Source of the DNA: Clostridiaceae bacterium | GTDB taxonomy: Bacteria > Bacillota > Clostridia > Acetivibrionales > Acetivibrionaceae | Assembly (NCBI GenBank): GCA_012519925.1 | Contig: JAAYPF010000057.1 | Coordinates: 1 to 63,314 of the forward strand | Direction of reading: 5' to 3' | Length of the DNA: 63,314 nt | Shown here: piece after piece, positions 1-58,406 of the stretch | Layout: every line of letters begins with the position of its first letter | Numbering within the stretch: the first letter of the stretch is position 1 | Notes under the pieces: model-generated | Told to the model about the DNA's origin: nothing | The model's database searches: none | What the model saw: only the letters and a program-made list of their open reading frames with translations | Position numbers and translations under genes: made by a program

Positions 1-119
1 CTGCGGGATTAAAACCTTTATGAGAATTTTACCCATAATATGTAGTCAGGGGGGTCAAATTTTCATTAGCACAAAGGGGTCAAAAATTAATTAGCGAAGG
101 GGTCAAATTTTTGTTGACA
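1..119 (+). mobile_element. Terminal end of an IS21-family-like insertion sequence (partial)
   Basis: Three spaced copies of a GGGGTCAAA(A/T)TTT-type repeat occur within about 70 bases (near 49, 76 and 99), and the last runs into TTGTTGACA, whose reverse complement TGTCAACAA is a typical outer tip. Several repeated GGGGTCAA blocks at the tip are characteristic of IS21/IS408-family ends. The reading frame just beyond base 119 is the interior of a prepilin signal, which fits insertion into that gene. No transposase or IstB frame is visible in the short stretch available, so the family call rests on the end repeats only. Confidence 0.55.
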
Positions 120-593
120 AACGCACTTATAGAATTGCTTATTGTCATAGCAATTTTAGGTGTAATCTCGGTTATTGCGTTTAGTATGTTTACTGGAGTT
201 ATAAATAATTCTAGAAAAAAATCTGATGAACAACAGGCACTGTTAATTGAAAAAGCCGTCCTTTCTTACATGATCCAAAGTAATGATTACAAACTACAAC
301 ATTTAAAGTATGATGGTAGCAATCACTCAATGAACGGTAAAGACTCCGAAGAGTTAATATATGCACTTCAAAACACCATCATATGTGATATCGATGGGAG
401 CGAAAAAGAAATATATCCCATTCTGAATCCAAAATCCTCTTCGACTCCATCAGCCTCAAATTATTTACCTTTTTGGAACACCACTAAAGGAGGTAACTAT
501 ATTGGATACAAAATAGAAATAGATTCAGAGACTTTAAGCTGTAATGTGACTCCCGTGACCTCAAATGCAAAGGTTTTTGTAGATGAACACTAA
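111..593 (+). pseudogene. Type IV pseudopilin / type II secretion prepilin-like protein, 5' end cut by insertion element
   Basis: The first residues after the element read ALIELLIVIAILGVISVIAF, the hydrophobic core that normally follows a short basic leader and the G-F-T site cleaved by prepilin peptidase. The leader and cleavage site are missing: the codons before it belong to the insertion-element tip. The remaining part is about 155 residues, with a helix followed by a polar globular C-terminal region ending in VFVDEH, a usual size for pseudopilins. Without its leader the product could not be processed by prepilin peptidase. A TTG at 111 could open the frame, but it lies in the element and has no ribosome binding site, so it is called a broken gene. 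A strong terminator follows at 608-637. Confidence 0.7.
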
Positions 594-5901: not shown

Positions 5902-6618
5902 ATGCGTATACTTGTAGTGGAAAATGATCCTTATTTATCAAAAGCTTTGAGTAGAGTTTTAAAGAAAAGCAGTTATTCTGTGACCTGTGTACATAATGGT
6001 GATGATGGTTTGGATTTTGGTCAAACAGGCATATACGATATTATTCTGTTAGATGATACACTCCCAATTATGGATGGTATTACTGTGCTGCAAAAGCTTA
6101 GGAAGAATAAAGTTTCGGTACCTATAGTTTTATTAAGTGCACGAGATGATTCATTCTCAAAGGTTACGGGTCTCGATAGTGGTGCAGATGATTATCTTGT
6201 AAAGCCATTTTCTTTCGATGAGCTATTAGCACGTATTCGTGCATTAGGAAGGCGTAGAGGAGAATTTTTGTCAGACAATATATTAACTTATGGTGATATT
6301 GAATTAAATATAGACACCCTTAAGCTATCAACCGAGATAGGAGAAGTCTCTCTTACCTGTCGTGAATACGAGCTGCTAGATTTTCTTATAAGAAGAAAAG
6401 GTATTATTTCTCCTAAAGAAAGGATTATAGAAAAGCTTTGGGGTTATGACTCTAGTGCTGGTTCAAATCATGTTGAGGTATATATCTCTTTTTTGAGAAA
6501 AAAATTAGAGTCTATCGGCTCAAATGTTGTCATTATTACTCATCGTGGAGCAGGTTATGAAATAAATACTATGGATAGGGAGTATCCTGAAAAACCTTTA
6601 CTCAAAAACTTAATCTAG
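5902..6618 (+). CDS. OmpR/PhoB-family response regulator (orphan)
   Basis: The 238-residue protein has a receiver domain (1-120) and a winged-helix DNA-binding domain (about 130-225). Receiver residues are visible: E7/D9 in the acidic pocket, phospho-acceptor D51 in LLDDTLP, S79 and K101 in LVKPFSFDELLARIRALGRR. The effector has the usual CREYELLDFLIRRKG and HVEVYISFLRKKLE helices. N8 replaces one of the usual acidic residues, which may alter metal binding. GGAGG lies eight bases before the ATG. No histidine kinase gene is adjacent; the nearest kinase genes in the window are about 47 kb away, so the partner is unknown. Confidence 0.93.
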   Translation: MRILVVENDPYLSKALSRVLKKSSYSVTCVHNGDDGLDFGQTGIYDIILLDDTLPIMDGITVLQKLRKNKVSVPIVLLSARDDSFSKVTGLDSGADDYLVKPFSFDELLARIRALGRRRGEFLSDNILTYGDIELNIDTLKLSTEIGEVSLTCREYELLDFLIRRKGIISPKERIIEKLWGYDSSAGSNHVEVYISFLRKKLESIGSNVVIITHRGAGYEINTMDREYPEKPLLKNLI

Positions 6619-9109: not shown

Positions 9110-11326
9110 TTAAAAACCAGATCTCATTCCAAGCAATACCAGTCTCATCAATGCGAAGTCTAGTGAATCAACCTCTTGATTGTTATCCACATCAGCAATT
9201 ACAAGTTGCTCTTCAGTTAAAGCTTTTGAGCCTAATAAATGCAATCTCAAACGCCCAAAATCTAACGAATCAAAGCTTCCATTGCCATCAATATCGCCCT
9301 TTAATACATTAGTTGGAGTAGGTTTTGCTGTTGGAGTTGGAGTTGAAGTTGAAGTTGAAGTTGAAGTTGGAGTCGCTGTCTTAGTTGGAGTTACAGCAGG
9401 CTCTCCAGGTTCTTTACCATATATTTTCACACCATTGTCGTAAATAGGTATATATTCAGTTTTCTCACCAGTTTGTGGTGAAGCCTTATCCAATCCCTTA
9501 AAGGAGAAATCGTTTGTGTTGTCCCAAGCTGTAAATCCGTTTGGTGCATTTAGCGTAAAGTAAACATCCCTCTTGTAATCATTTATTCCGCCAGGGAAAA
9601 TATTAGTTCCGGTATAATCAACCTCTACATAGTAAATATTCTTTGAGGCATCCCACTCAATAAGTTTTGGTGATACCTTCCCGCCATTTGTAGAATTTGC
9701 TGAAACAGTAATATCACTTGCTTTAAATCCTGCTCCAATAACTTCAGATATATCAATAAAGTATCTAAACGAGAGTGTATCACTTGCTCTTGGCGGCCAT
9801 CCTGTCATATTTGCTAAAGTAACCTTCATATTAGTAAAAGTTGGTCCTGAGGCGTTCATAGCACCAAAAATAGCAAATTCCTCACCCACTGGCTCAATCG
9901 CATTAAAATTAGGTATAGGTGTGCCACCATATTGATCGTACATTCTAGCAAGTATTCCTACAAATCCTGCGTTATAGTCACAAGCAACTTCATTCGCCTG
10001 AAAATCGCCAATTGAATCACTATAAGTATCGCTTACACTTGGTCCCCCAACTAGTGCTCCGTAAAGTATATGTCTATGCTCATCAGGAGTAGTCATCATT
10101 GCTTCCCATCCACCGTGAGCACTTCTGTGGTGTGGATACTTAGGAGAGTTTGTTCCAAAACCCACTACATAACTTCTACCAGTACTTCCAAGGGCATAAT
10201 CTATCTGGCTTTTTGCAAATTCCTTATAAGTCTTTGCTTTGGTAGAACTACATCCTGACCAGTCAGCATAAACATCTGCTAAAAATGCTGCCGTAGTTGC
10301 GTATCTTAAGGTACCCCACACGTCACAAACCGCAAGTCCCTTAGGAGAATATGCTACACGATTACCGTTGTAACCTGTAGTCCACCAGTCTAAATTATTT
10401 TCTATACCCTGCTTATATAACGAATCACCGGTAGCTCTTGCAAGAAGCAAGAAAGCACCAAATAACTTATTGTCCCAACAATGCCCCCATGCATATTTAA
10501 TTATGGTTGTACCATTTTCCACTTCCCAATTATTTTCGTATGAAGCAGCCTTGTCAAGGTATGCTGTATCTTCTGTTGCAAGATATAACCATGCTGCAGC
10601 CCATGTAAGTTCATCGTAAAAACCACTGAATGAGGAATAATAACCGTTTGCAGCTACATATCCTTCATCACTCCTAGTTGTATCTGCAAAAGTAAATAAT
10701 TCTTTTGCATGTTGAAGACATGTTGCAGCATAACTAGGATCTGTATCTTTAAATATAATTGAAGCTACAGCCAATGCTGCTGCTGTTTCTCCAACAACTG
10801 TAGAACCAGGACTTGCAGTAGTCACCTTAAACGAAGGTCTTTCCATCTGCATAACTTCTGGAGGTCCCCACCAAGCGTGATCAAGGGCACCATCAGCAAC
10901 CTGATAGTAATATACATTTGGACTTGGGTGACACTTAATAAAATAATCGGTTGCCCATTTGATGTTATCAAGTATGTAATCGAGCTGACCACTCTTTTTG
11001 TAGGCATCACGGTTCTCATAAACACTCCAACCAAGCATTGTAGCTGAATATGCCATTGGAAGATTAAATTTGGCATTATCTCCAGCATCATACCATCCGC
11101 CTGTCAAATCCAACCCTGCATCTGATCCATCTTCTAATGCTGAATCCCCACGCCAGTTAACCCTGTTATTTTCAGGCAGAGCCCCAGACCTTTGCATTTC
11201 ATAAAAAATTATTCCTTTCTGAAGAGCCTCTCCATAGTTATAGGATGCTGCTGAAACTGAAGAAAACGGTACAAGAAAAGCTGCCATTAGTGATAACACC
11301 GTAATAAATGCTATCGGTTTTCTCAT
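9110..11326 (-). CDS. Cellulosomal GH9 endoglucanase (GH9-CBM3c-dockerin)
   Basis: The 738-residue enzyme should cleave beta-1,4-glucan, probably processively. It has a signal peptide (1-27), GH9 catalytic domain (about 28-470) with GGWYDAGD (D80 and D83), HHRSAHG at 399-405 and acid E446 in [14 protein letters not shown], a fused CBM3c (about 475-630), a Thr/Ser/Pro linker with 6-base repeats (645-675) and a dockerin (677-738) with two DSLDF repeats. This is theme B of GH9, in which CBM3c helps feed the chain. Order and length match CelF of A. thermocellus, but orthology was not tested. The start is the ATG at 11326 with GGGAGG upstream; the in-frame TTG at 11344 overlaps that ribosome binding site and is rejected. 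Confidence 0.95.
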
Positions 11327-11482
11327 TAACAAAACCTCCCTCAAATTATTTATATTTTTGGCAATTTCAAAGAATAACTCTACAATATTTATGTCCTAAA
11401 TTACCTCATAGAAAATTCTTTGAAAAAGCAATTGATCAGTTATTTTTATGGAGTAGATGCGAAGCATCCGCCGAAGGGAGCC

Positions 11483-11547
11483 GAAGGGCACCATAGGGTT
11501 CCCTAGCGAACAAGAAAATTCATGAGCGAAGTCAAATTTTCTTGAAT
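11483..11547 (+). repeat. Dispersed hairpin repeat, copy A
   Basis: This 65-base sequence begins GAAGGGCACCATAGGGTTCC and ends AATTTTCTTGAAT. It matches 39005-39068 on the opposite strand at nearly every base. It can fold into two hairpins: an AGGG(C/A)ACC / GGTTCCCT stem, and CAAGAAAATT pairing with AATTTTCTTG. A further small palindrome GATGCGAAGCATC lies just upstream at about 11457-11469. It sits in the 541-base gap (11327-11867) between the GH9 promoter side and the celA terminator. Nothing else in that gap is gene-like. Confidence 0.85.
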
Positions 11548-11710
11548 CACCCTTAAATAAAAAATACAAGCCTAAATTGTATATAATTATTCTCTATATT
11601 TATAATAGTTCGAGTTGTATGCTCTTTTTTAGTCCATGCGTTTAATGCTTAATTTACTTATTTTTTAATCATTATTGCTTACAGGCTTCAAAGAATCACC
11701 CCATCAAATA

Positions 11711-11773
11711 CAAAAAACAAATAGAGTTAGAAGGAATAAGATACCGCAAGCGATGACTTATCTCTTCTAACTC
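11711..11773 (-). terminator. Rho-independent terminator of celA
   Basis: On the minus strand GAGTTAGAAG-AGATAAG pairs with CTTATTC-CTTCTAACTC (11724-11773, 15 of 17 positions paired) and is followed by TATTTGTTTTTTG. It is about 95 bases beyond the celA stop. Confidence 0.75.
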
Positions 11774-11867
11774 CTAACTTCAAAACTTGCACTTTAATAT
11801 AATTCCTCAAAAAATCTGTTTCTTGTAAACATTATAACTACATTGAACTCAAAAGATTTCGATATAA

Positions 11868-13295
11868 TTATATCATACCTAATAATTTCATTCTCATATA
11901 TCCAAAATCTAACGAATCAAACGCTCCATCTTGGTTCATATCAGCAGCTGCATCACCATATACATATGGAAATCTGTCAATTTCCCCAAGCAATTTCATT
12001 CTCATATATCCAAAATCCAAAGAGTTTACATCTCCATCAGCATTTACATCTCCTAAAACCACTGACACTCCCTTTGTAGGGGTTGGCGTCGGAATCACAG
12101 GTGTAGGTGTTGCAGACACTACTTCTTCATAAAGATTTGGGAAATTACCTGTTGTGTACAATAAAGTAATCATTTTTAAGCTTCCTCCATAATAGCAGTA
12201 AGCATCAGGTTCTATTACCTTTACGTTTTCTTCATGCATAGCTTTTGCAAAATTAATATCATATCCTGTAAGAGCACTAGCTGCTATCGGAGCCACAAAG
12301 GAACTGTTATGGGCAGAACCTATTTGATTTCCGTTTATGGAGTATTCACCTTGTATATTTGATGGTCCAACCTTAATAAAAAACTTATTAATAAGGTCAC
12401 AATTCGTTTTCGCTCTCTCATCTCCAAACCATAAATAGTCCAATACCGTTCTCCAAGGATATCTTGTAGCATCGTAGCTGTAGTTGTATCCTTGACCTGA
12501 AGCAGGAGAACCATCTCCTGTACACCAATCAGGAACCAGTCCTGTTCCGCCATTTTTTCTATTTACACTATCTATTATCTCGTAACACTTGTCCGCTACA
12601 CTATACCACTTTGTATTACCCGTAAACTGTGCAAATATCTTATACCATGCTGGTGCAAAATAGGAAGGATTTACAGTACTCCAACCACCCCAAGTATCGC
12701 CGGGCTTGAGTATATCGCCATCCAAACAATGCCTTTCCAAATTGCTTATTAAAGTTTTAGCTTCGTTGCTGTAATTAATTGAGCCATTTGATCCCCACTG
12801 CTTATGGGCAAAAATCAAAGATACCGCAATATCTTCATCTGCATCGGTAGCACAGTTTACTTTACCGTCACCCGGTGCCAAACTACCATTAGCACTAATA
12901 TGCCAAGACATAAGTCCTCTAGAATTGAAATGAAGCTTTACATAACGATAAAGATCGTCAAATAGTGATTGTTCATTGAAGTAAACCGCAAGAAGCATAC
13001 CATAACCGAGTCCTTCAGATACTGTATCATAGTCTGTGGAACTGTCTCTCTGAACCCTCTTAAAGCCACCTGCACCACTTGATGTAATGTGTCTTCCCTT
13101 CCATGCTTCCCACTCTCTTAAAACTAAAGCATTTGCCTCATCTTGGTTGTCAACCACAGAACTCAATCCATACTTGTATATTGCATTGTACGGAAACTTT
13201 GCTGCAGCAGATACACTCTTGACATTGATGGCTACAGTTGATGTTATCAATGAAATTAAAACTAAAAATATTATGCCCGCCCTTGATGTTTTCAT
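11868..13295 (-). CDS. celA: Cellulosomal GH8 endoglucanase CelA (GH8-dockerin)
   Basis: The 475-residue protein matches GH8 endoglucanase CelA of A. thermocellus in domain order and length. It has a signal peptide (1-30, ending SVSA-A), a GH8 (alpha/alpha)6 domain (about 34-375) with general acid E94 in VSEGLGYGM, the D151-A-D-E-D cluster, and D275 in YDATRYPWR, then a short Pro/Thr linker and a dockerin with two repeats ending in SLDFGYMRMKLLG. It should cut internal beta-1,4 bonds of cellulose. The ATG at 13295 has AGAGGAGA upstream; a GTG at 13313 overlaps that site and is unlikely. The gene diverges from sigI-rsgI, the arrangement at the A. thermocellus sigI1-rsgI1-celA locus. Confidence 0.95.
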   Translation of the reverse strand: MKTSRAGIIFLVLISLITSTVAINVKSVSAAAKFPYNAIYKYGLSSVVDNQDEANALVLREWEAWKGRHITSSGAGGFKRVQRDSSTDYDTVSEGLGYGMLLAVYFNEQSLFDDLYRYVKLHFNSRGLMSWHISANGSLAPGDGKVNCATDADEDIAVSLIFAHKQWGSNGSINYSNEAKTLISNLERHCLDGDILKPGDTWGGWSTVNPSYFAPAWYKIFAQFTGNTKWYSVADKCYEIIDSVNRKNGGTGLVPDWCTGDGSPASGQGYNYSYDATRYPWRTVLDYLWFGDERAKTNCDLINKFFIKVGPSNIQGEYSINGNQIGSAHNSSFVAPIAASALTGYDINFAKAMHEENVKVIEPDAYCYYGGSLKMITLLYTTGNFPNLYEEVVSATPTPVIPTPTPTKGVSVVLGDVNADGDVNSLDFGYMRMKLLGEIDRFPYVYGDAAADMNQDGAFDSLDFGYMRMKLLGMI

Positions 13296-14006
13296 TTTGT
13301 GTCTCCTCTTCACTATACCTTCCCCTTTCGCATATTATTTATCTTATTTAACCTCTTATATACTACCAATTTTGGTCGCAATTATAAGAGCTTCAATCAT
13401 TGAAATATCAGGTGCATCTACTATTATGGGATTTTGCTATTTATAACACAATCAGTTCTTTAATATAATATGTACCGTTTTCTCTGTAAGGAGCTTTAAA
13501 AAAAATTCGTTAGTATATATATTTACAAGCTAATAAAACCACTTTTTCGAAACACTAATTGACAAGTTGTTATAATCCCCAATGTCCACAATGCAAATAG
13601 AGGCTATTAGCAATTAACTAAAATATCCTTCTTAGTAATTCTATAATATCATAGATGAAATAACATTAACAAGATATATGCAATTCTTCTCAAAAAAGTT
13701 TGTCTGCTTACTAAAGTATTATGCTGGAGGTATTATAACTTAGGCATTATAAAACACTTTATAAGAAATTCTTGAAGAATGCAGATATTATCTAATTCTT
13801 ACAAAGAATCTTAAATATTGTGACGTTTCAGACTCAAAACTTCTTTTAGAAGAAGTTAGTAAATTTGTCAGAGTGTTTTAAATTCTGAATTCTATGGTTC
13901 TGAATTCTTGCGGCTTTGCCGCGGTATGTTTCTCAAATTGCATTAAACTTATATCCGTTAACATTTATTAACTTCTTTACTCTATGATCTGTCTGTATTT
14001 ATTTCA

Positions 14007-14418: not shown

Positions 14419-14513
14419 AGTACTGCTTAATATGCTATAATCAACAATATACACTTCTATTAGCAATACTACAAGGTTTCTTTGCAGTACTTCAAATTTG
14501 AGGGGTGAAATTT

Positions 14514-15299
14514 TTGACAGATATATTTTTCCCTAAGAGGAAAAGAAATATCCATAAGGATGATGAACAAACAAATGATGTTATCCTTACTATTAATAGA
14601 ATAAAAGCTGGAGACAACTTGTTAAGAAATGATTTTATCGACAAATACAAGCCCTTTATTCTAAAAACCATCTCCGGCGTAACAGGTAAGTACATTGACA
14701 CTGAGAACAGTGACGAGTACAGTATTGGTCTATCCGCTTTCAATGAAGCCATCGATTGCTTTGATGAGAGTAAAGGAGTGATGTTTTTTAAGTTTTGCTC
14801 CTTAGTCATTAAACGGAGAGTATCAGACTATCTTCGTCAAAACAAAAAACACAATAAGGTTTTTCCTTTTACATATTTTGAAGAAGATGATAATAATAGC
14901 TTTGAACAGACTCATTTAAAAGCAATCAATGATGATCTAAATACTTTTGAATTTAGCGATGAGACAAAAAGCTTTGAAAAGAAACTTAATGAACTTGGAA
15001 TAAAGTTTGAAGATCTTGTTCGGACCGCACCTAAACATAAAGATTCAAAAATTCTATGCTTAAAGATTGCAAAGGCTATTGCTGATAACAAAGAAAGCTT
15101 TAGTAAGCTTGAAAAATCTGGAACGATACAAAAAACAGAACTAGTCAGAACATTGAAAATAAATAAAAAAACTATAGAACGAAATAGAATCTTTATTATT
15201 GCTGCCGCACTTATTATCGGCAATGGGTTTTATCTATTGAGAGATTTTTTGGATATCCCAGAAGTTGGAGGGAAACATTTTGAACAGAGTACAAAATAA
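14514..15299 (+). CDS. sigI: RNA polymerase sigma factor SigI
   Basis: The 261-residue protein (from TTG 14514) has a sigma region 2-like N-terminal part, with FIDKYKPFILKTISGVTGKY, SIGLSAFNEAIDCFD and FFKFCSLVIKRRVSDYLR, and a C-terminal DNA-binding domain with NKKTIERNRIFIIAAALII, both typical of SigI. In cellulolytic clostridia SigI factors switch on cellulosome genes when freed from their RsgI partner. TTG is chosen because GAGGGGTG ends six bases before it; the GTG at 14505 lies inside that ribosome binding site. Its end overlaps the start of rsgI by 20 bases. It diverges from celA, matching the sigI1 locus of A. thermocellus. Confidence 0.92.
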   Translation: MTDIFFPKRKRNIHKDDEQTNDVILTINRIKAGDNLLRNDFIDKYKPFILKTISGVTGKYIDTENSDEYSIGLSAFNEAIDCFDESKGVMFFKFCSLVIKRRVSDYLRQNKKHNKVFPFTYFEEDDNNSFEQTHLKAINDDLNTFEFSDETKSFEKKLNELGIKFEDLVRTAPKHKDSKILCLKIAKAIADNKESFSKLEKSGTIQKTELVRTLKINKKTIERNRIFIIAAALIIGNGFYLLRDFLDIPEVGGKHFEQSTK

Positions 15300-17322
15300 T
15301 GGTTCATCAAATTTAGGTATAATACTTAAGTTAAAAAAGAATAGAGTTATAGTAATGACAGACAAACTTGATTTTATCGAAGTTTATCGTAAACCTGGAA
15401 TGATACGCGGACAGAAAGTATATTTTAATTCCTTTGATTTATGCGAATCTAGTCTATGGTTCTTTAACTATAAAAAAGTCTTGAAATTTGCTTCTGCTGC
15501 TGCATCGGTTGCTGCAATCTTTGTAATGCTATTTGTTGGATATAGATTTTTATCACCTGTAGACGAATATGCTTATATTGATATTGATATAAATCCTAGC
15601 GTTGAAATGACAATAGATAAGGACGAGAATGTACTCAAAGCTCAGGCTCTAAACAGTGAAGGACAGACTCTTTTAGATGCTGTAAAAGTTAAAAACACAG
15701 TGCTAGTAGATGCTGTATCTTTGCTGTTGAATAAATCTAAAGAAATTGGTTATATAAATTCTGACAACAATGAAGTCATAGTTACTACTTCTGTCAACTC
15801 TAAAAAAGCATCTGAGTCGAAAAGCAAAGATTTAGAAGCCATTATTTCGTCCTTAAAAGAAGTTGCAGATAAATCAGGATTTGAATCACAAATCATTGAG
15901 ATTTCTCCCGAAGATAGAAAGGAAGCAAAGGAAACAGGTATTTCTATGGGGAAATATTACATATATAGTAAAGCTAAAGATGAAGGCATCGATATAACTA
16001 TAGAAGAAGTTAAAAACTCAAGTGTATCAGTTTTACTTAACAAAGTTACCCTTTTAGATGATACAGATATGCCTCACACTCAGAATCCAAATACCGAACC
16101 AACTTCCCAACCTACACAAAAACCGACTTCTACTCAATCAGTTGAAAATTCACCTGCTGTTACAGCGACTTCTTCGGTTGTTACTGGGGCACCCGTTACT
16201 TCTACACCGACTTATACTTCGGTTGCCATTATTACAGCTACACCATCTTTAATATCCGATTCAACGCCTTCACCTACAGCATCTAATGTAACTAGACCAT
16301 CTGTTACTTCCTATAGAACAATTACACCAGAAGTTAGAACACCTTCACCTAAGCCATCAATAACAGCTACACCTTCGAGACCTACTAATACAGTTACTAC
16401 ACAGCAACCTTTCCCTGTTTTTACACCTACTAAAACTCCAAAACCTTTGTTTACGGCTACTAAATCACCTACACCTACGCCTAAACCTACAAAACCAAAA
16501 GTGACCGTCACTACTTCTGTGACTATAAATACACCTGTGAAAAAAACACCTACACCAACTATTGTTTCAACACCTACACCTATAACAACTATTATGCCAA
16601 CAATAACATCGTCTCAGCTACCAACACCAACTGATAAACCAACGCCAGTTCCAACTATTAAATCTACACCTACATCTGTACCTACGCATACGCCTACACC
16701 TACACAGACACCTATATCTACGCCAACAGCAACACTAACACCTATATCTACACCGACAGTGACACCAACTTATACTCCTAAATCTACACCAACACCAACA
16801 CTAACACCAACGCCACCAACAACGACTATACCAACAGCAACACCAACGGGAGTAATATCAATGAAACTTGGTATGTATAATGAAGAAAGAGCAAGCAACG
16901 CAAAAGAAATTCACCCTAGATTTAAGCTCATTAACAATGGAAATACTGCAATCAAGTTATCAAATATTAGAATTAGGTATTACTATACTATTGATATCGA
17001 GGATAAGCACCAGAAATTCTACTGTGATTGGTCCGATATAGGCAGAGATAATGTAACAGGCAAATTTGTTAAAATGAACTCAAGTGAAAATGATGCAGAT
17101 TATTATCTTGAAATAGGTTTTGACAGTACTGAATCTCTAGAACCAGGAAGTAATATAGAAATTGCGTGTAGAATTGGTCCGGACAATACCATTGGAGATG
17201 GAAGTGAATTCTACAATCAGTTGAATGATTACTCCTTTAACGGAACCGCTAGAGACTTTGTGAGTTGGGATAAAGTAACAGTTTTTGTATCAAGTTTTAT
17301 CCTGTGGGGTGACGAGCCTTGA
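15280..17322 (+). CDS. rsgI: RsgI-type membrane anti-sigma factor with C-terminal CBM3
   Basis: The 680-residue protein has a cytoplasmic anti-sigma domain (about 1-60), one membrane helix (about 67-92, [21 protein letters not shown]), a conserved outer domain (about 95-245) beginning [20 protein letters not shown], a very long Thr/Pro/Ser linker (about 255-525) and a C-terminal CBM3 (about 530-680). The Asn-Pro in DINPS is the site at which RsgI proteins are reported to self-cleave before signal-dependent proteolysis. The CBM3 should sense cellulose outside the cell and lead to release of SigI. The TTG start at 15280 has GGAGGG seven bases upstream; the TTG at 15265 overlaps that site. The gene overlaps sigI, so they are co-translated. 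Confidence 0.94.
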
Positions 17323-47339: not shown

Positions 47340-48329
47340 TTATAATAAACCTCCTGTGTTTTCCCTAGTATAGCTTTTAGGAACGTCAATTTTACTTATA
47401 ATACTCCTTATAACTGCAGTAGGAAGACGACCTTCCATAATATGCTCTACATGTAGAATTATACGATGTGACAATGCTTCTACAGCTACAAACTTAACGT
47501 CATCGGGAACAACATAATCCCTCCCCGCTATCAAAGCATTTGCACGGGATAATTTCAAAAGCCCTAATGCACCCCTTGGACTTGCTCCAAGTTTGATATT
47601 AGGATTATTTCTTGTAGTTCTAACAATTTCAGTTATATACATAAGTATATTATCATCAACAAATACCTTTTCAGCTTCCTGCTGAAGCATCAAAAGCTCA
47701 TCCATAGTTATTACTGGGCGAATATCGTTGGTTGGATCGTCCTTTTTCCACTCAATACGACGCCTTAGCACCTCACATTCCTTCTCTAAACTATCAAGAT
47801 ACCCTAAAGAAATTTTCATTATAAACCTGTCCATCTGAGCTTCTGGCAAGGGATATGTACCCTCCATTTCTATAGGATTCTGAGTGGCCATTACAATAAA
47901 AGGCGGCTTAAGAGGATACGTTGTACCTTCTATTGAAACCTGTCTTTCCTCCATTGCCTCTAAAAGTGCAGACTGTGTCTTAGGCATTGCCCTGTTTATC
48001 TCGTCAGCAAGTAAAAAGTTTGTAAATATAGGCCCTTTCTCAAGCTCAAAAGCAGAGGAATTGCTCTTCCAAATTTTTGTACCCGATATATCAGAAGGCA
48101 TTAAATCCGGTGTAAATTGAATACGCTTCCATTCACAACCTGTGATCTTTGCAAGAACCTTAACAAGTAACGTCTTCCCTAAGCCTGGATTATCTTCAAA
48201 TAAAATGTGTCCCCCCGACAAAAAACCGCAGAGAACTTTATTGAGCAACAATCTGTCACCTGATACAAATACCTTTTCAACTTCATCAATTATAGTTTTA
48301 CATAATTTTTGAACGTGTACCATATCCAT
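47340..48329 (-). CDS. MoxR-family AAA ATPase
   Basis: The roughly 330-residue ATPase has Walker A in DNPGLGKTLLVK, Walker B LLADEINRA, sensor 1 ATQNPIE, an arginine-finger region EAQMDRFIMKI, and the MoxR C-terminal lid with SPRGALGLLKLSRANAL and YVVPDDVKFVA. MoxR proteins remodel partner proteins, often VWA/DUF58 proteins coded next door. The start is uncertain: several in-frame ATGs lie at 48338, 48329 and 48323 behind AAAAGGGG, and an upstream TTG at 48353 is possible. All overlap the end of the previous gene, so translation is coupled. Confidence 0.93.
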   Translation of the reverse strand: MDMVHVQKLCKTIIDEVEKVFVSGDRLLLNKVLCGFLSGGHILFEDNPGLGKTLLVKVLAKITGCEWKRIQFTPDLMPSDISGTKIWKSNSSAFELEKGPIFTNFLLADEINRAMPKTQSALLEAMEERQVSIEGTTYPLKPPFIVMATQNPIEMEGTYPLPEAQMDRFIMKISLGYLDSLEKECEVLRRRIEWKKDDPTNDIRPVITMDELLMLQQEAEKVFVDDNILMYITEIVRTTRNNPNIKLGASPRGALGLLKLSRANALIAGRDYVVPDDVKFVAVEALSHRIILHVEHIMEGRLPTAVIRSIISKIDVPKSYTRENTGGLL

Positions 48330-49464
48330 TATATACATATACCCCTTTTCCAAAAAGCTTTAGATTTGATGTAATTTTTTCAATTACCTTTGATCTGTTC
48401 TGCCTGTTTCTTTCTTCAATAGCCTTATATTGTTCACTTGTCAACATACCAGGAATTTCCGGATCACAGTATTCAACAAGGGGAGCAATTATATTACTTA
48501 CTGCGTTAAACGGTATGCCCGTCTTATATCCTAAAAAAGTGAGGTAAGATACCAACTTGCTCTTCTTCCCATGATTTACATAATCATTAATATACTTTGT
48601 AATGTTCTCAAGATCCTTACTCTTGTCAAAACTCATATCCTGCATGTGTTTTGCCAATTTTTCCTCTGGAGAGTATTTAACGCTTCCCCACAACATAGTC
48701 GCAAAGATAATAAAAACTACCAGGAAGATCATAAATAAAAAAATCCAACCCGCTACTCCCGAACTCAAATTATCCCTCCTCATCAACGATAACACAAATA
48801 CCATAAAGAATATTAATATATATTTTATCATGTGATTACTTTTAAGCCACATAGATATCCTTCTTGCCTTTTCATTATAAAAAAGTTCTATAAGAGTGCT
48901 CATCTGTAACATGGCTAGTACAATAAATGATATCAATACAAGGCTTGAGAAGGATCTCCAGAATTTATCCACGGAATATCCGCCCTTCCAAAACCCTCCA
49001 AACATACTTTTTATAGTCAACCCCATCATAACATAAGAAAATGCCTTTATTGTACAACCTTCATATATTCCCGTATAAAAAAAAACCGATGCTTTACAAA
49101 CTATTATTGAAGCTGCTAATAAAGCTACCCAGACTATAGAGGTTAAGTATTTCATGTCCCTTGAAACAAAGGAAAGAAAAAGCACTGCTGAAATCCCATT
49201 TGCCAAATAAAGAATAAAGCTTGATAGAAGACCAGACCATCTACCTACAAAATAGGTGCTTACAAAAGACTTAACTGAAACACCCACCAGTATAGCTATA
49301 GCAGGAAATATTAAAAAATAGAAATATTCCCTTACACTATACAAAAGTCTACCTGGCAAAAAGAAAATAAAAAATACAAATGCTCCAAATGCCGCAAGCA
49401 TAATTGTATATCTTTTAAATTTCTTCGACGATGCATTTAAACTTTCTGCACTATCTAGATACAT
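48298..49464 (-). CDS. Multi-pass membrane protein of unknown function in MoxR operon
   Basis: The 388-residue protein has about eight or nine membrane helices in residues 20-270 and then a charged cytosolic region of about 115 residues containing YSPEEKLAKHMQDMSFDKSKDLENITKY-like helices, only part of which is conserved-looking. No family was recognised with confidence. It stands between the transglutaminase-like gene (97-base gap) and moxR (overlap), the position held by membrane components in other MoxR/DUF58/transglutaminase loci. A transport or envelope-assembly role is speculative. Confidence 0.7.
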   Translation of the reverse strand: MYLDSAESLNASSKKFKRYTIMLAAFGAFVFFIFFLPGRLLYSVREYFYFLIFPAIAILVGVSVKSFVSTYFVGRWSGLLSSFILYLANGISAVLFLSFVSRDMKYLTSIVWVALLAASIIVCKASVFFYTGIYEGCTIKAFSYVMMGLTIKSMFGGFWKGGYSVDKFWRSFSSLVLISFIVLAMLQMSTLIELFYNEKARRISMWLKSNHMIKYILIFFMVFVLSLMRRDNLSSGVAGWIFLFMIFLVVFIIFATMLWGSVKYSPEEKLAKHMQDMSFDKSKDLENITKYINDYVNHGKKSKLVSYLTFLGYKTGIPFNAVSNIIAPLVEYCDPEIPGMLTSEQYKAIEERNRQNRSKVIEKITSNLKLFGKGVYVYNGYGTRSKIM

Positions 49465-52450: not shown

Positions 52451-53176
52451 TTAATTCTCTTTTAAGTAAAATTCCACAAGTTCGTGATATTCTTTTAAAT
52501 CAACTTTTCCCTTTTCACTTAATGTGTACAAGCCTCTTGATACTCTCTCAAACCATCCGTAATGGTTATCCTGTAATATCCTCGACGTCTTTTCCTTGTC
52601 TGTCCCCAACTCCTTAAGCCTTTTTGGACTTAAATCACCATATTGCTCAAGCAGGGCTGCAATATGTATTGCCTGTTCTCTATATACAGTCACTAGTTTT
52701 TTACCAGTACAACCTCCTATATTGTAATCTCCATGTCTATTTGAAAATTCGTTAAGAACCTCTCTTTTTTTCCTGTTTGACTTTTTTATACTTAATTCAC
52801 GGTTAAAAGGCATTGGAGCTATTGCCTCTTCAACAAATGCAACTTCTCCTCTGATCGAAACTAAAAACAAACCTAATTCAAGCCTTCTTAATAGGTAACA
52901 TATATCCTTCCAACGTTTCGTGAAAAGTAGCTTGCCTTTTTTGGGCACAGCGATATATACCCTGTCTGTCAATCTTTGGCGTAACGAAGCTTGTAGAATA
53001 ACATCAAGGTTAAGAGTTTTCTTCATTTCCACAACCAGCAATTCATCACATCTTACTGCCATAACATCGCAGTTCTTAACCTCACCCTTTACTGTATATC
53101 CTTCTTTTGTAAGATAATCTTTTATTGGTGCATATAGGTCTTGTTCATATAATATTTTTTTTTGCTTCTGTTTCAT
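52451..53176 (-). CDS. DUF2161 family protein, predicted PD-(D/E)XK nuclease fold
   Basis: The 241-residue protein shows the core expected for this family: GEVKNCDVMAVRCDELLVVE with M-K following, giving D37 and an E-x-K pair near residues 50-52, then a helix with ILQASLRQRL. DUF2161 is assigned to the PD-(D/E)XK phosphodiesterase superfamily, but its substrate is unknown. The C-terminal third contains a winged-helix-like region (YGDLSPKRLKELG, SRGLYTLSEKGK) that may bind DNA. It is a single gene between the kinase pseudogene and the MoxR operon, with no restriction or toxin partner nearby. Confidence 0.85.
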   Translation of the reverse strand: MKQKQKKILYEQDLYAPIKDYLTKEGYTVKGEVKNCDVMAVRCDELLVVEMKKTLNLDVILQASLRQRLTDRVYIAVPKKGKLLFTKRWKDICYLLRRLELGLFLVSIRGEVAFVEEAIAPMPFNRELSIKKSNRKKREVLNEFSNRHGDYNIGGCTGKKLVTVYREQAIHIAALLEQYGDLSPKRLKELGTDKEKTSRILQDNHYGWFERVSRGLYTLSEKGKVDLKEYHELVEFYLKEN

Positions 53177-53273
53177 TTTCTCCTCATTTTCAATACATAT
53201 AATAATATAGCTTTTCCATATAAGGTATCATCAAACATAATAGGCGTCAATAATAGCTCAGAAATAATTTCAA

Positions 53274-55409
53274 CTACCTATCCTTGGCTATAGGCAACGC
53301 AATAAAAAACTCAGTACCTTCATTAATTTTTGATTCAAACCAAATTTCTCCTCCGAATTTTCCCTTTATGGTTGAATACGATAACATAAGACTCACACCA
53401 TTACCGGTCTTGCCTTTAGTTGTAACTATATATTTAAATATACGGGACTTGACTTCATCAGGTATTCCTACCCCAAAATCCTTCACTGTTATTATTATCA
53501 TATTTTCCTTTTTGAGAATACCGAGCTCAACTCTACATTCATGTAGTTCTTTTCTAGTATAGGATTCAATAGCATTCTTTATTAAATTGTCAAGTATTTG
53601 AATGATATTAGATATATCTCCGAGAATAACAATACTTGAATCTGCGTCTACAAACAAACTAAAATCTGATTTCCTTATAATTATATCACTGTTTCTTAAA
53701 AACTTAATTCTATTTGTCAATTCATTTATCGTAAAGCTATTATTCGTTTGAGCGTTCAATTGTACCGCTTGGGACTTTACTGTTGATATGACACTAGACA
53801 TATACGAGTTGTATTCTTTTAACTTTTCAATCCATTCTCCCATTTCTGAGTTTATCTCAAGATGATCCTCAATGGTTACTGATTCATCACCTATAGAATC
53901 TCGATATTCATTGTTTAAATCCTCTAAAGCAGCAGCTAGACCAGCTATCGACATGATAGGTGTCATAAGGTTATGTGATATCCCTCCTATGAGCTGACCT
54001 AATGAAGCTAATCGTTCATTTTCCCTCAAACTCTCTTCGATTCTCTCCCTTTCCATTAGCATTAGTGCACCTTTTAAAGTGTTACTTATCTGCCCTCTTA
54101 AAAGTTCAAAAATCATTACATCATTATTGTCAGTCCCTTCAAAACATGTGTACCCTAAATGCTCATTCTTAAAAAACAAAGGTAATACAAGATGAGTAAA
54201 CCTCCTGTCGTAGTTAATAAAACTCTCAGGAAGAATACTTGTAGTCATTATAATTCTCTCTTCCTCATCAATAGATCTGCGCTCACCATCACAAAAAGCA
54301 TAAATCAATTCGGATGTTTTTGGCACCTCAAAAGACTCATCAAAGGCCATTTCAACATCGTAAAAAATAGGACCCTCGACATACTTAAAAATAAAACAGC
54401 TTTTTATAAAGCAATGTTTTAAAAGAGTTGTTAGTCTATCAAAAAGCTCATCAATCTGATAGGACTGAATACTTTCATGTGCTCTAAATCTTGCTGCTAG
54501 TTTTACATCCATATTATTTTCTATATCATCATTTTCTTTATTATAGCTGCACCCACACGACTCACGTTTTACCATAACACAAGGAAATTCAATAGTCTGT
54601 TCCTCGCTTTCACCTTTTACCAATAATTCTACCGCCTTGTAACACATTTCCTTAATTGGTTGCCTAACCGTTGTCAATCGTGGAGTCACCTGACTTGCGT
54701 TTAAAGAGTCGTCAAAACCGCATATTATGCTTTTTTTATCAGCGGAGCATTTTCCTGCTTCCTTCATGCTTTCAATGCACTTAATCGCTCCTAAGGCCAT
54801 ATCATCGTTTGCAAATACTATTGCATCATAATCTATTTCCATTAAAATAATCTCTTGCATTACTTTATAGCCTGTATCAGCGACAAAATCACCTGAAAAT
54901 ACAAGTGTTTCATCAAAACTTATATTATTTTCTTCAAGAACCTCCTTATAAGCACTGAAACGTTCAACTGACCATTCAAAGTTCTCTGGACCTTTTACAA
55001 AAATGATTTTTTTGTAGCCATGATCTTTAATCAAATGTCTTATTACGTCTTTCATACCTTCTTTGCTATTACTAAGCAAACTAATAGCTTGGGGTATTTT
55101 TATGCCAAATGAAACCTTCGGAATGTCTTTATATTTATTGAAGAATTTTATCAGCTCTTCTTGAAAAAAATTTATCAATATTGAAGAAGTTGTAATGATT
55201 AAGCCATCTAGCTTTCCTTTTTCAACAAAACTATATACTATATGATGCTACTTTGGTGCATAACCAGCTTCTCTTAATGTTCTTCCTTCAAAAACCAATA
55301 AGTTACAGTCCAATTCTTCAGCCGCTTTCTTGAACGCTAGCCATAAAAGTGTTTGGTAACTGCCGTCGATACTATTAATAATAAGGCCTAACGTCTTACG
55401 GTTTTTCAT
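53274..55409 (-). pseudogene. Soluble sensor histidine kinase with LacI-type sensor, interrupted by in-frame TAG
   Basis: From ATG 55409 (GGGGTGA seven bases upstream) the frame is open for 53 codons, meets TAG at 55248-55250, and continues in the same frame to 53274. The whole would be 711 codons and aligns along its length with the paralog just upstream (55420-57552). At position 54 the paralog has Gln coded CAG, so one C-to-T change explains the stop. Downstream parts are intact: periplasmic-binding-like domain, GAF-like middle, GGISHNLMTPI with the phospho-His, N-box NLIKNAIESY and VKDFGVGIPD. A TTG at 55178 could restart translation without a ribosome binding site, losing about 77 residues of the sensor. 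Confidence 0.85.
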
Positions 55410-55419
55410 CTAATCACCC

Positions 55420-57552
55420 CTATAGCGTTTCAGTTATAGGTACTTCAATGTAAAATGTAGCACCTTTATTAACTTCCGATTCAAACCATATCTCGCCTCC
55501 AAATTTCCCTTTTATGGTCGAATATGACAACAATAGACTTAATCCTGTTCCATTCTTCCCTTTTGTAGTTACCATGTGCTTAAATAATCGAGACTTTATA
55601 TCATCCTTTACTCCACAACCAAAATCTTTAACTGCAATTGTCAGAATGTTTTTATTTTTTTGTATATATATATCGATTTTGCACTCATGTTGTTCTTTAT
55701 TATCATAGGACTCAATTGCATTCTTTAATAGATTCTCAAGCACCTGAACCATATTTAAAATATCTCCTGGAACAACAACATCCAAATTCACATCTACAAA
55801 TAGCTCTATGTTAGAATTTTTGATGGTAATATCACTACTTTTCATAAATTCAATCCTATTAAGCAGCTCATCTATTGTAAAACCATTATTAGCATGGTAA
55901 TTCAATTGAACTGCCTGGGACTTAACATTTGATATTACCTTGGACATATATGCATTATATTCTTTTAACTTCTCAATCCATTGTGCTATTTCAGAACTAA
56001 TTTCATAATGATCCTCCTTTGTTACCATTGGATCTCCTATAGATTCTTTATATTCATTTTTCAAGTCCTCTAGAGCAACAGATATACCCGAAATAGACAT
56101 AATAGGCGACATAAGGTTATGAGATATACCTCCTATCAACTGGCCTAATGAAGCTAATCTTTCATTTTCTCTCATAGTTTCTTCGATACTATCCCTTTCA
56201 AGTACCATTAATGCACCTTTGAGAGCATTACTTATCTCTCCCCTTAAAAGCTCATAAGTCATTGTATCACTATCAGTGGCTTCAAAACATATATAACCGA
56301 AATGCTCATTCCCAAAGAACAACGGCATAACAATGTATGTTAGTCTTTTATCGTCCTGTAAAAAGCACTCTGGAAGAATACTTGAAGTCCTTATTATCTT
56401 GTTGTTTTCCTCAATAGATATCCGCTCGCCCTTATAATAAGCATATATCATTTCAGACTTTAAGGGTATTTTAAAGGATTCATCAAAAGCCATGTCAATA
56501 TCGTAAAAATATGGACCATCGAAGTATTTTAAAATAAAACAGCTGTCTATAAAGCACTGTTTGAGAACAAGTGTAAGTTCCTCAAATAGCTCATCTATCT
56601 CGTAAGTTTGTATGTCTTCATGAACATTATAGTTAGCAACAAGTTTTAGACATTTGTTATTAGTATTATTATCATTCGCTATATTATAACTACACCCACA
56701 AGATGCCCTCTTAACCATAATCGATTGGAATTCAATTAACTCTTCTTTAAAATCCTCTTTCACCAATAACTCAACAGCTTTAGTACACATTTCGCTTATA
56801 GGCTGCTTTACTGTTGTTAAAGGTGGATCTGAATTTCTTGCAATAATACTATTGTCAAAACCACATATTATAACCTGTTTGTCTTTAGGATATATACCTG
56901 TCTTTTTCATGTTACCTATGGCCTTTATCGCACCTAATGCCATGGAATCGTTTGCAAAAACTATTGCATCATATTCAATATTTGTATGAATAATTTGTTC
57001 CATTATTTTATATCCAGTATCTGCTACAAAATCACCATGAAACACCCTATTCTCATCATAACTTATGTTCTTTTCTAACAAAACCTCCCTATATGCTTCA
57101 AACCTTTCTAACGAATCAGCATTATTAATAGGTCCGGTTACAAAAATAATTTTTTTACTACCATGGTCATCAATTAAATGCCTGATAACATCCTTCAAAC
57201 CTGCTTTGTCCTTACAAACTATGCTTGCAGTATTCGGAATCTCTATACCAAAAGACACAACCGGAATATCCTTGTACTTTTTACAAAACTCCTCAACTTC
57301 TTTAGGGGATGCAAAGGTACCAACGGAAGCACTTGCTACTATTATTCCATCAAGTGATCCTTTCTCAATAAAATTGTATATTATATAATGCTGTTTAGCA
57401 CCAAATCCTTTATTATTTAAAGTCCTTCCTGCAAACACCATCAAATTGCAGTTCATATCTTCAGAAGCTTGCATAAAAGCCAACCATAATTGAGATTGAT
57501 ATGTGCCATCAATATCATTTAAAACAAGACCTATTGTCTTACGCTTTTTCAT
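55420..57552 (-). CDS. Soluble sensor histidine kinase with LacI/periplasmic-binding-type sensor
   Basis: The 710-residue protein has a sugar-binding-protein-like domain (about 5-285, as in LacI regulators but without the DNA-binding headpiece), a GAF-like middle region (about 300-450), and a kinase (about 455-710) with probable phospho-His H478 in GGISHNLMSPI, N-box LLKNAIESY, VKDFGCGV and TKGKNGTGLSLLLSYSTIKG. There is no signal peptide or membrane segment, so it should sense a cytosolic ligand. The ATG at 57552 follows GGAGTGA; a longer frame to 57603 lacks a site. The broken paralog starts ten bases after its stop. No response regulator is adjacent. Confidence 0.9.
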   Translation of the reverse strand: MKKRKTIGLVLNDIDGTYQSQLWLAFMQASEDMNCNLMVFAGRTLNNKGFGAKQHYIIYNFIEKGSLDGIIVASASVGTFASPKEVEEFCKKYKDIPVVSFGIEIPNTASIVCKDKAGLKDVIRHLIDDHGSKKIIFVTGPINNADSLERFEAYREVLLEKNISYDENRVFHGDFVADTGYKIMEQIIHTNIEYDAIVFANDSMALGAIKAIGNMKKTGIYPKDKQVIICGFDNSIIARNSDPPLTTVKQPISEMCTKAVELLVKEDFKEELIEFQSIMVKRASCGCSYNIANDNNTNNKCLKLVANYNVHEDIQTYEIDELFEELTLVLKQCFIDSCFILKYFDGPYFYDIDMAFDESFKIPLKSEMIYAYYKGERISIEENNKIIRTSSILPECFLQDDKRLTYIVMPLFFGNEHFGYICFEATDSDTMTYELLRGEISNALKGALMVLERDSIEETMRENERLASLGQLIGGISHNLMSPIMSISGISVALEDLKNEYKESIGDPMVTKEDHYEISSEIAQWIEKLKEYNAYMSKVISNVKSQAVQLNYHANNGFTIDELLNRIEFMKSSDITIKNSNIELFVDVNLDVVVPGDILNMVQVLENLLKNAIESYDNKEQHECKIDIYIQKNKNILTIAVKDFGCGVKDDIKSRLFKHMVTTKGKNGTGLSLLLSYSTIKGKFGGEIWFESEVNKGATFYIEVPITETL

Positions 57553-57839
57553 CAAATCACTCCAATTAATTTTCGAATTGGTAATTCTCCCGCAAGCATT
57601 CAATTAAACATAAGAAATCGTCTCTACTGACAATAGAAAAGAACTGCAAAACTAGGCACTAATTAATTTCGTCTATAAAGACCCTTTAGAATACAAATTA
57701 CAAAAACATATTACATGTACATAATTATAGCACACCATAATAAATATGGAAATAACAAGTTTTTGTTAGGTAAACACTTATAATTATACTATAATACGGT
57801 ATATAAAAACAAACACAGACTTTGTCGTGTCAATACATT

Positions 57840-58406
57840 CTAAGCCTTCTTGCCACTCTGACGGGTAAAACCAAAAATGCATCCAAAAATGCCACCCGCA
57901 ATATGAGTAAGCTGTGAAACATTATCTTCCTTTAGTAATGCATCGGCTAATTCCATTCCAAGGTAAACAACTACTACCAAAATTAGCGTAATAGGAATAC
58001 TTCCCTTTTTTATGTTAGCAAAGGAACCTAACAAAATAAACATAAACACAATGCCACTCGCACCAAGCAAAGCAGAATTAAAAAGCAGTATATTCAACAA
58101 ACCTGTTACAAGTGCTGTAATTGCCATCATCATAAGCAGGTTTTTAGAACCGTATTTTTCCTCAAGCATTGGCCCAATTATTAGTATTATGAGGAAATTG
58201 CTCAAAAAATGGTTCCAATCCGCATGTCCTAATACATGCCCAAACAATCTGAAATAAAAGAAAACATCGGTAAGACTTCCTCTATATACCGAAAAAAGTA
58301 ATCGGGTAGAATAAAAATTTGTAACTCCGCTGAGAATTAACACTATAAAGGATAATATAGTGTAAGTCAGTATTACCGGTGAATTATAGTGAAAACGTTT
58401 TAACAT
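57840..58406 (-). CDS. Rhomboid-family intramembrane serine protease
   Basis: The 188-residue membrane protein has about six helices, with the rhomboid dyad visible as Ser in LGASGIVFMFI and His in LTHIAGGIFG, plus HADWNHFLSN and GPMLEEKYGS in the first helices. Rhomboids cut within or near membrane helices. The length is that of the minimal six-helix form. It follows the EEP-DUF4846 gene by 61 bases on the same strand and may be cotranscribed with it; no substrate is suggested by the context. Confidence 0.93.
   Translation of the reverse strand: MLKRFHYNSPVILTYTILSFIVLILSGVTNFYSTRLLFSVYRGSLTDVFFYFRLFGHVLGHADWNHFLSNFLIILIIGPMLEEKYGSKNLLMMMAITALVTGLLNILLFNSALLGASGIVFMFILLGSFANIKKGSIPITLILVVVVYLGMELADALLKEDNVSQLTHIAGGIFGCIFGFTRQSGKKA

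Follow-up and report, generated by a model that had tools for sequence, protein, structure and literature searches.

A single in-frame TAG in one of two tandem LacI-type orphan sensor kinase genes of a Clostridiaceae bacterium: a probable recent nonsense mutation

Why should a sensor kinase gene that is otherwise well kept carry one in-frame TAG close to its start? The window analyzed here, a 63,314-nucleotide stretch of contig from a cellulose-degrading Clostridiaceae bacterium, contains two tandem histidine kinase genes on its minus strand, the intact K1 and the interrupted K2 (Table 1). The first-pass annotation had described K2 as a frame running from its ATG to 53274, continuous except for TAG at codon 54, where an intact paralog has CAG. 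Translation bears out both statements: the K2 frame extends over 711 codons up to its terminal stop, interrupted once by an internal stop and nowhere by a frameshift, and K1 is intact with CAG at this codon. The K2 ATG lies ten bases past the K1 stop and is preceded by a good Shine-Dalgarno sequence (-6.5 kcal/mol against the anti-Shine-Dalgarno). Because the protein is homologous to K1 (62% identity) and to four copies in two congeners (63-67%), the frame is taken as a gene. With a probability that we put at about 0.72, K2 is a bona fide LacI-type sensor orphan kinase gene of the Clo1313_1973 type, which restrains sporulation, cut short very recently by a single nonsense substitution.

Table 1. 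Features of the tandem kinase locus (positions in the window)
Feature	Position	Strand	Basis or remark
K2, LacI-type sensor orphan histidine kinase gene, interrupted at codon 54	53274..55409	minus	translation, Pfam, homology
In-frame TAG, K2 codon 54	55248..55250	minus	context AAG TAG CAT CAT
53 open codons ahead of the K2 stop: LacI-like N-lobe strands 1-2 and helix 1	55251..55409	minus	judged from the K1 model
Open frame past the K2 stop: remaining LacI-like domain, Pfam-unnamed middle domain, HisKA-like helices, HATPase_c	53274..55247	minus	
Codon of the presumed K2 phosphoacceptor His479	53973..53975	minus	in GGISHNL
End of K1 stop codon and K2 Shine-Dalgarno region	55410..55421	minus	GGGGTG ahead of ATG 55409
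K1, intact tandem paralog	55420..57552	minus	ATG 57552, 710 aa, stop TAG 55422-55420
Rhomboid-family neighbor gene	57840..58406	minus	counterpart adjoining or near the kinase in G001, G002, and several g3 genomes
DUF2161 neighbor gene downstream of K2	52451..53176	minus	downstream of the G001 pair too, not seen in G002

In both kinases, a LacI-like sugar-binding domain is followed by a middle domain that has no Pfam name and then by a histidine-kinase core. Among the best 60 of 97 sequences in a PDB profile search, LacI, PurR, CcpA, and AscG match residues ~1-287, and kinase cores match residues ~433-711. Pfam detects PF13377, PF00532, and PF13407 in all 18 aligned members, including K2 with its TAG read as Gln, and HATPase_c likewise in all of them; just seven reach E 0.01 for HisKA, although the H-box His is invariant across this alignment. 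His479 of K2 is presumably the phosphoacceptor, a label that we carry over from kinase families. The structure model of K1 (mean pLDDT 74.7, pTM 0.56) places residue 54 in a low-confidence loop, 44-58. The claim that all domains and catalytic motifs of K2 remain intact stands in part: the motif residues are present, but K2 is not pristine, with a G2 box of GNGVSL where the other nine core homologs have GTGLSL (eight) or GAGLSM (one). These private G2-box changes could reflect a relaxation predating the stop. At residue 144, K2 has an N-to-F change found in no other of 22 full-length sequences.

Is the stop shared by relatives? Homologs were sought in the genus (3 genomes), the family (14), and the order (58) at a threshold of E 1e-90 or better; the family search scored all candidates, while the order search scored no more than 19 per genome. 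On that basis, at least 27 homologs occur in at least 15 of the 58 genomes of the order, and an internal stop is found in K2 only (0 of the 26 others). K2 itself is flagged with two TAGs, codon 54 and the TAG directly preceding its ATG. One copy in G001 (G001_b), flagged with one TAG, was considered as a second stop-bearing homolog and rejected, its flag proving on translation to be the terminal stop; the remaining 25 have no flag. The alignment and tree contain K1, K2, and 22 further homologs; the three remotest (G028-G030) appear in the search table only. At the codon-54 column, all nine other homologs from genera g1 and g3 have Gln (CAG or CAA), and the 23 other aligned sequences, from the 26 other homologs found, divide into 11 Gln, 11 Lys, and one Asn; since relatives tolerate any of the three, residue 54 is not critical. 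A scan of genome contigs yielded a single match, to a distant Patescibacteria sequence, and thus nothing usable as a relative.

LacI-type kinase tandem pairs are also present in G001, G003, G007, and G005 (L024, L050, L051, L052), and the pair members of the last three form two matching clades, so these genomes have retained both copies. The homologs of G004 and G006 are shorter and end ahead of HATPase; because the tree places the two together as sisters and both end at the same point, theirs is apparently a separate, older truncation. In both genomes (L036 and L035, respectively) what is left is the sensor and H-box with no ATPase, and a PilT-like gene comes next. By eye, a PilT-like ATPase gene also lies 3' of the kinase in G012, G013, G008, and G011 (L046, L047, L048, L053), as two ORFs in G012 and as a single ORF in the other three.

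Which twin has been kept better? In the tree, K1 and K2 pair with support 0.968, and the K2 branch is the shorter (0.265 versus 0.375). K2 has fewer private residues than K1 against all seven outgroups, with p<0.05 in five (but not with G012, p 0.26, or G008, p 0.07); with outgroup G001_a the counts are 109 for K1 and 55 for K2. Of the columns that are otherwise invariant across ten core homologs, K2 breaks seven, not counting the stop, and K1 breaks 17. Three comparisons that pair K2 with another copy give dN 0.23-0.26 and dS 1.9-4.3, the latter saturated. Judged by sequence, then, neither twin is decaying. The lack of a second stop in the K2 codons bounds the age of the first at <0.028-0.045 neutral substitutions per site (95%, across three transition biases). 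Because K2 evolves more slowly and its lesion is bounded in this way, the interrupted gene is by these measures the better-kept twin until almost the present. An ordinary pseudogene has a lesion absent from relatives, as K2 does, and further decay past the first lesion, which K2 lacks; this lack is consistent with very recent loss. The earlier proposal of such a loss is thus supported by the missing second stop or frameshift, the signature of purifying selection, and the slower evolution of the interrupted twin.

We infer from the sequence that the substitution is real and recent. The main rival to a genuine nonsense mutation is a base error in the draft, or a minority variant captured in it, with K2 intact in the cell, and we consider this rather unlikely. 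The genome is a 253-contig draft, and a single-base change in an otherwise well-kept gene is how an error would appear. Against this, the TAG lies ~8 kb inside a 63 kb contig. Moreover, DNA identity between K1 and K2 is 69%, and they match over no more than 16 consecutive bases, which makes gene conversion between them or an assembly chimera unlikely. Nor is there any lone internal stop among 138 domain matches in the genome (37 HATPase_c, 65 ABC, and 36 to the Spo0A model, mostly receivers), a survey that covers domains only and misses stops elsewhere. Stop flags occur in eight of these matches: six are terminal stops, one is a multi-stop remnant, and one is a fused or truncated remnant. The flagged kinases on contigs C241 and C130 and the four flagged receiver matches were candidates for further interrupted genes and were rejected, all having terminal stops. 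A decayed ABC transporter gene (L127, G000:C132:3756-4058) has several stops, unlike K2. Products of genes around the pair are close in length to their counterparts in relatives: those of leuS, DUF4846, rhomboid, and DUF2161 agree within 7 aa in G001, and those of leuS, DUF4846, rhomboid, and the five genes that begin with the transglutaminase-like one agree within 12 aa in G002.

Could the TAG be read as something other than a stop? Genome-wide amber recoding was rejected: RF1 is intact, no PylS above the cut-off and, among the tRNA candidates scored, no CUA tRNA were found, and TAG is a normal stop. The PylS model gives four matches only, at 26-27 bits against a cut-off of 178, and since 13 of 14 control genomes also give matches, of which one passes the cut-off, we read the four as ordinary synthetases. 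None of at least 47 tRNA genes has a CUA anticodon (150 of 259 candidates scored, an incomplete list that lacks some isoacceptors). A suppressor-tRNA (CUA) pattern matches 20 times, versus 26 for its reversed control, and ARAGORN on those 20 loci reports three tRNAs (Arg, Arg, Gly), none of them CUA. In a 381,317 bp sample made up of the window and 21 stretches, TAG terminates 69 of the 258 ORFs with a stop, and in-frame continuation of at least 80 codons shows no excess for TAG (3/69, compared with 9/151 for TAA and 1/38 for TGA).

The first-pass annotation had also raised readthrough, which at a low or regulated level would yield small amounts of K2; we hold this to be very unlikely. The fully kept downstream frame is in its favor, as is the noncritical residue 54, where near-cognate insertion would be tolerable. 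In-frame stops, including CAG/TAG, are described in many bacterial genes (Belinky et al. 2021, PMC7918605), and an example given there resembles K2 in that TAG stands opposite CAG at a single position while the rest of the gene is conserved. In that example, however, eight of the aligned sequences have the TAG, whereas the K2 TAG occurs in one genome only; the source also proposes a short life for many such events and assumes the vast majority to be without functional recoding. The intact RF1, the PylS result and, as far as the incomplete tRNA list goes, the lack of a CUA anticodon argue against readthrough, and the 104 bases from the K2 stop onward fold no better than shuffles (z 0.24). Programmed readthrough would leave the stop conserved in relatives, and none of the 26 other homologs shares it. 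Beyond the intact frame, readthrough of K2 is unsupported.

Restart of translation within K2, giving a sensor-truncated kinase with altered signaling, is highly improbable. An in-frame ATG at codon 119 (55055) follows a Shine-Dalgarno-like stretch (-5.5 kcal/mol), and a product begun there would retain lobe 2 and the kinase module, but the stretch ends ~1 base ahead of this ATG, a spacing too close by usual norms. The first in-frame start past the stop, TTG 55178, has no Shine-Dalgarno sequence (+2.8 kcal/mol).

Phase switching, another early suggestion, is likewise unsupported. A phase-variable gene would carry a repeat tract or an invertible element where it switches, and codon 54 has neither: no inverted repeat was found in 53200-57700, the sole tandem match in the pair, at 53559-53577, has a 10-base unit in 1.9 copies, and the three seven-base A/T runs of K2 (at 54731, 55007, and 55164) lie away from codon 54, the nearest being 55164-55170. 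The least probable reading of all, which we rate as having scarcely any chance, makes the TAG a standing, easily reverting single-base off-switch of the better-conserved twin, by which lineages would alternate between K1 plus K2 and K1 only, setting sporulation readiness on sugars while trace near-cognate readthrough keeps a little K2.

What would K2 have done before its truncation? By sequence, K1 and K2 are orphans, with no response regulator gene adjoining. No receiver was found among the four Pfam-scanned neighbors (DUF2161, rhomboid, DUF4846, and transglutaminase-like); two further neighbors within 47340-49464 look by eye like a MoxR-like protein and a membrane protein. The sole receiver match in the window lies at 5905-6255, ~47 kb from the kinases.

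The putative A. thermocellus genome in our set, G013, which we take to be ATCC 27405, contains a single family member, 712 aa long, within the E 1e-100 threshold; its two Spo0A genes lie where Cthe_0812 and Cthe_3087 would be expected by proportion. By their ORF sequences, the neighbors of the G013 copy form the same cluster (transglutaminase-like, MoxR-like, and DUF58-like, the last two by eye) with a nearby rhomboid gene. Identity to this copy is 50% for K1 and 54% for K2, and G013 differs in having the PilT-like gene 3' of its kinase. From domains, size, and neighborhood, K1 and K2 appear to be co-orthologs of Clo1313_1973 of A. thermocellus DSM 1313, a relationship that is new here. By the account of a review (PMC11210211), Clo1313_1973 is an orphan kinase of 712 aa with PPBP-HisKA-HATPase architecture. 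The present pair is alike in its LacI/periplasmic-binding-like domain, HisKA, and HATPase; here, unlike there, two tandem copies are present, one with a premature stop. The same review states that a Clo1313_1973 null mutant formed more spores than wild type and that double mutants with each other gene sporulated like wild type. The functional link of K2 to sporulation is drawn by analogy from this one knock-out in another species, as related in the review.

A second tandem kinase pair in the window (L027, 8897-10726 and 10752-12581, 609 aa each) has no evident regulator gene adjoining and has counterparts in G001 and G002; it resembles Clo1313_0495/0496 in size and order, as these are given in the review (PMC11210211). 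Elsewhere, a pilin-like ORF with an odd start region and no Pfam match occupies the contig end (window 1-593). A sigma-factor-like gene (sub-cutoff sigma-70 region 2) and an RsgI-type anti-sigma gene with CBM3 lie at 14505-17322, and dockerin-bearing GH9 and GH8 genes at 9110-13313 are near them.

Spo0A is intact in this genome as two paralogs (L132 and L133; G000:C220:32383-33171 and G000:C86:17042-17830), and each of the 14 family genomes has two, as is already known for C. thermocellum (PMC4890492, PMC3804516). A Populus-hydrolysate-tolerant A. thermocellus mutant is reported to have an early stop in the second spo0A, Cthe_3087 (PMC3804516). The parallel with K2 is that a gene of the sporulation pathway, in a related bacterium, has an early stop; the case differs in that, as described there, Cthe_3087 is a response regulator, not a kinase, and its stop arose under laboratory selection.

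If the recent nonsense substitution in K2 is real, ribosomes that start at the good binding site of this gene would stop after 53 residues, so that no K2 kinase would be made; the piece would be just the start of the first sensor lobe. In the intact state, a sugar-type ligand on the LacI-like lobe may set the kinase/phosphatase balance toward Spo0A, both the ligand and the Spo0A step being putative. By analogy with Clo1313_1973, K2 would act on the Spo0A pathway, and its loss would remove part of the restraint on sporulation. Intact K1 presumably retains some of the function of the family, and the predicted outcome is a relaxed sporulation restraint buffered by K1.

What does the interruption mean for the organism? 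As a decoding phenomenon, the K2 TAG is nothing unusual; the gene family is interesting, the event itself ordinary. Among studied proteins, the nearest relative of the pair acts as a brake on sporulation in a cellulosome clostridium. If the interruption is real, one member of a tandem orphan sensor kinase pair has been knocked out naturally, leaving the faster-evolving K1 in sole charge, and the strain should then not serve as a wild-type reference for this pathway.
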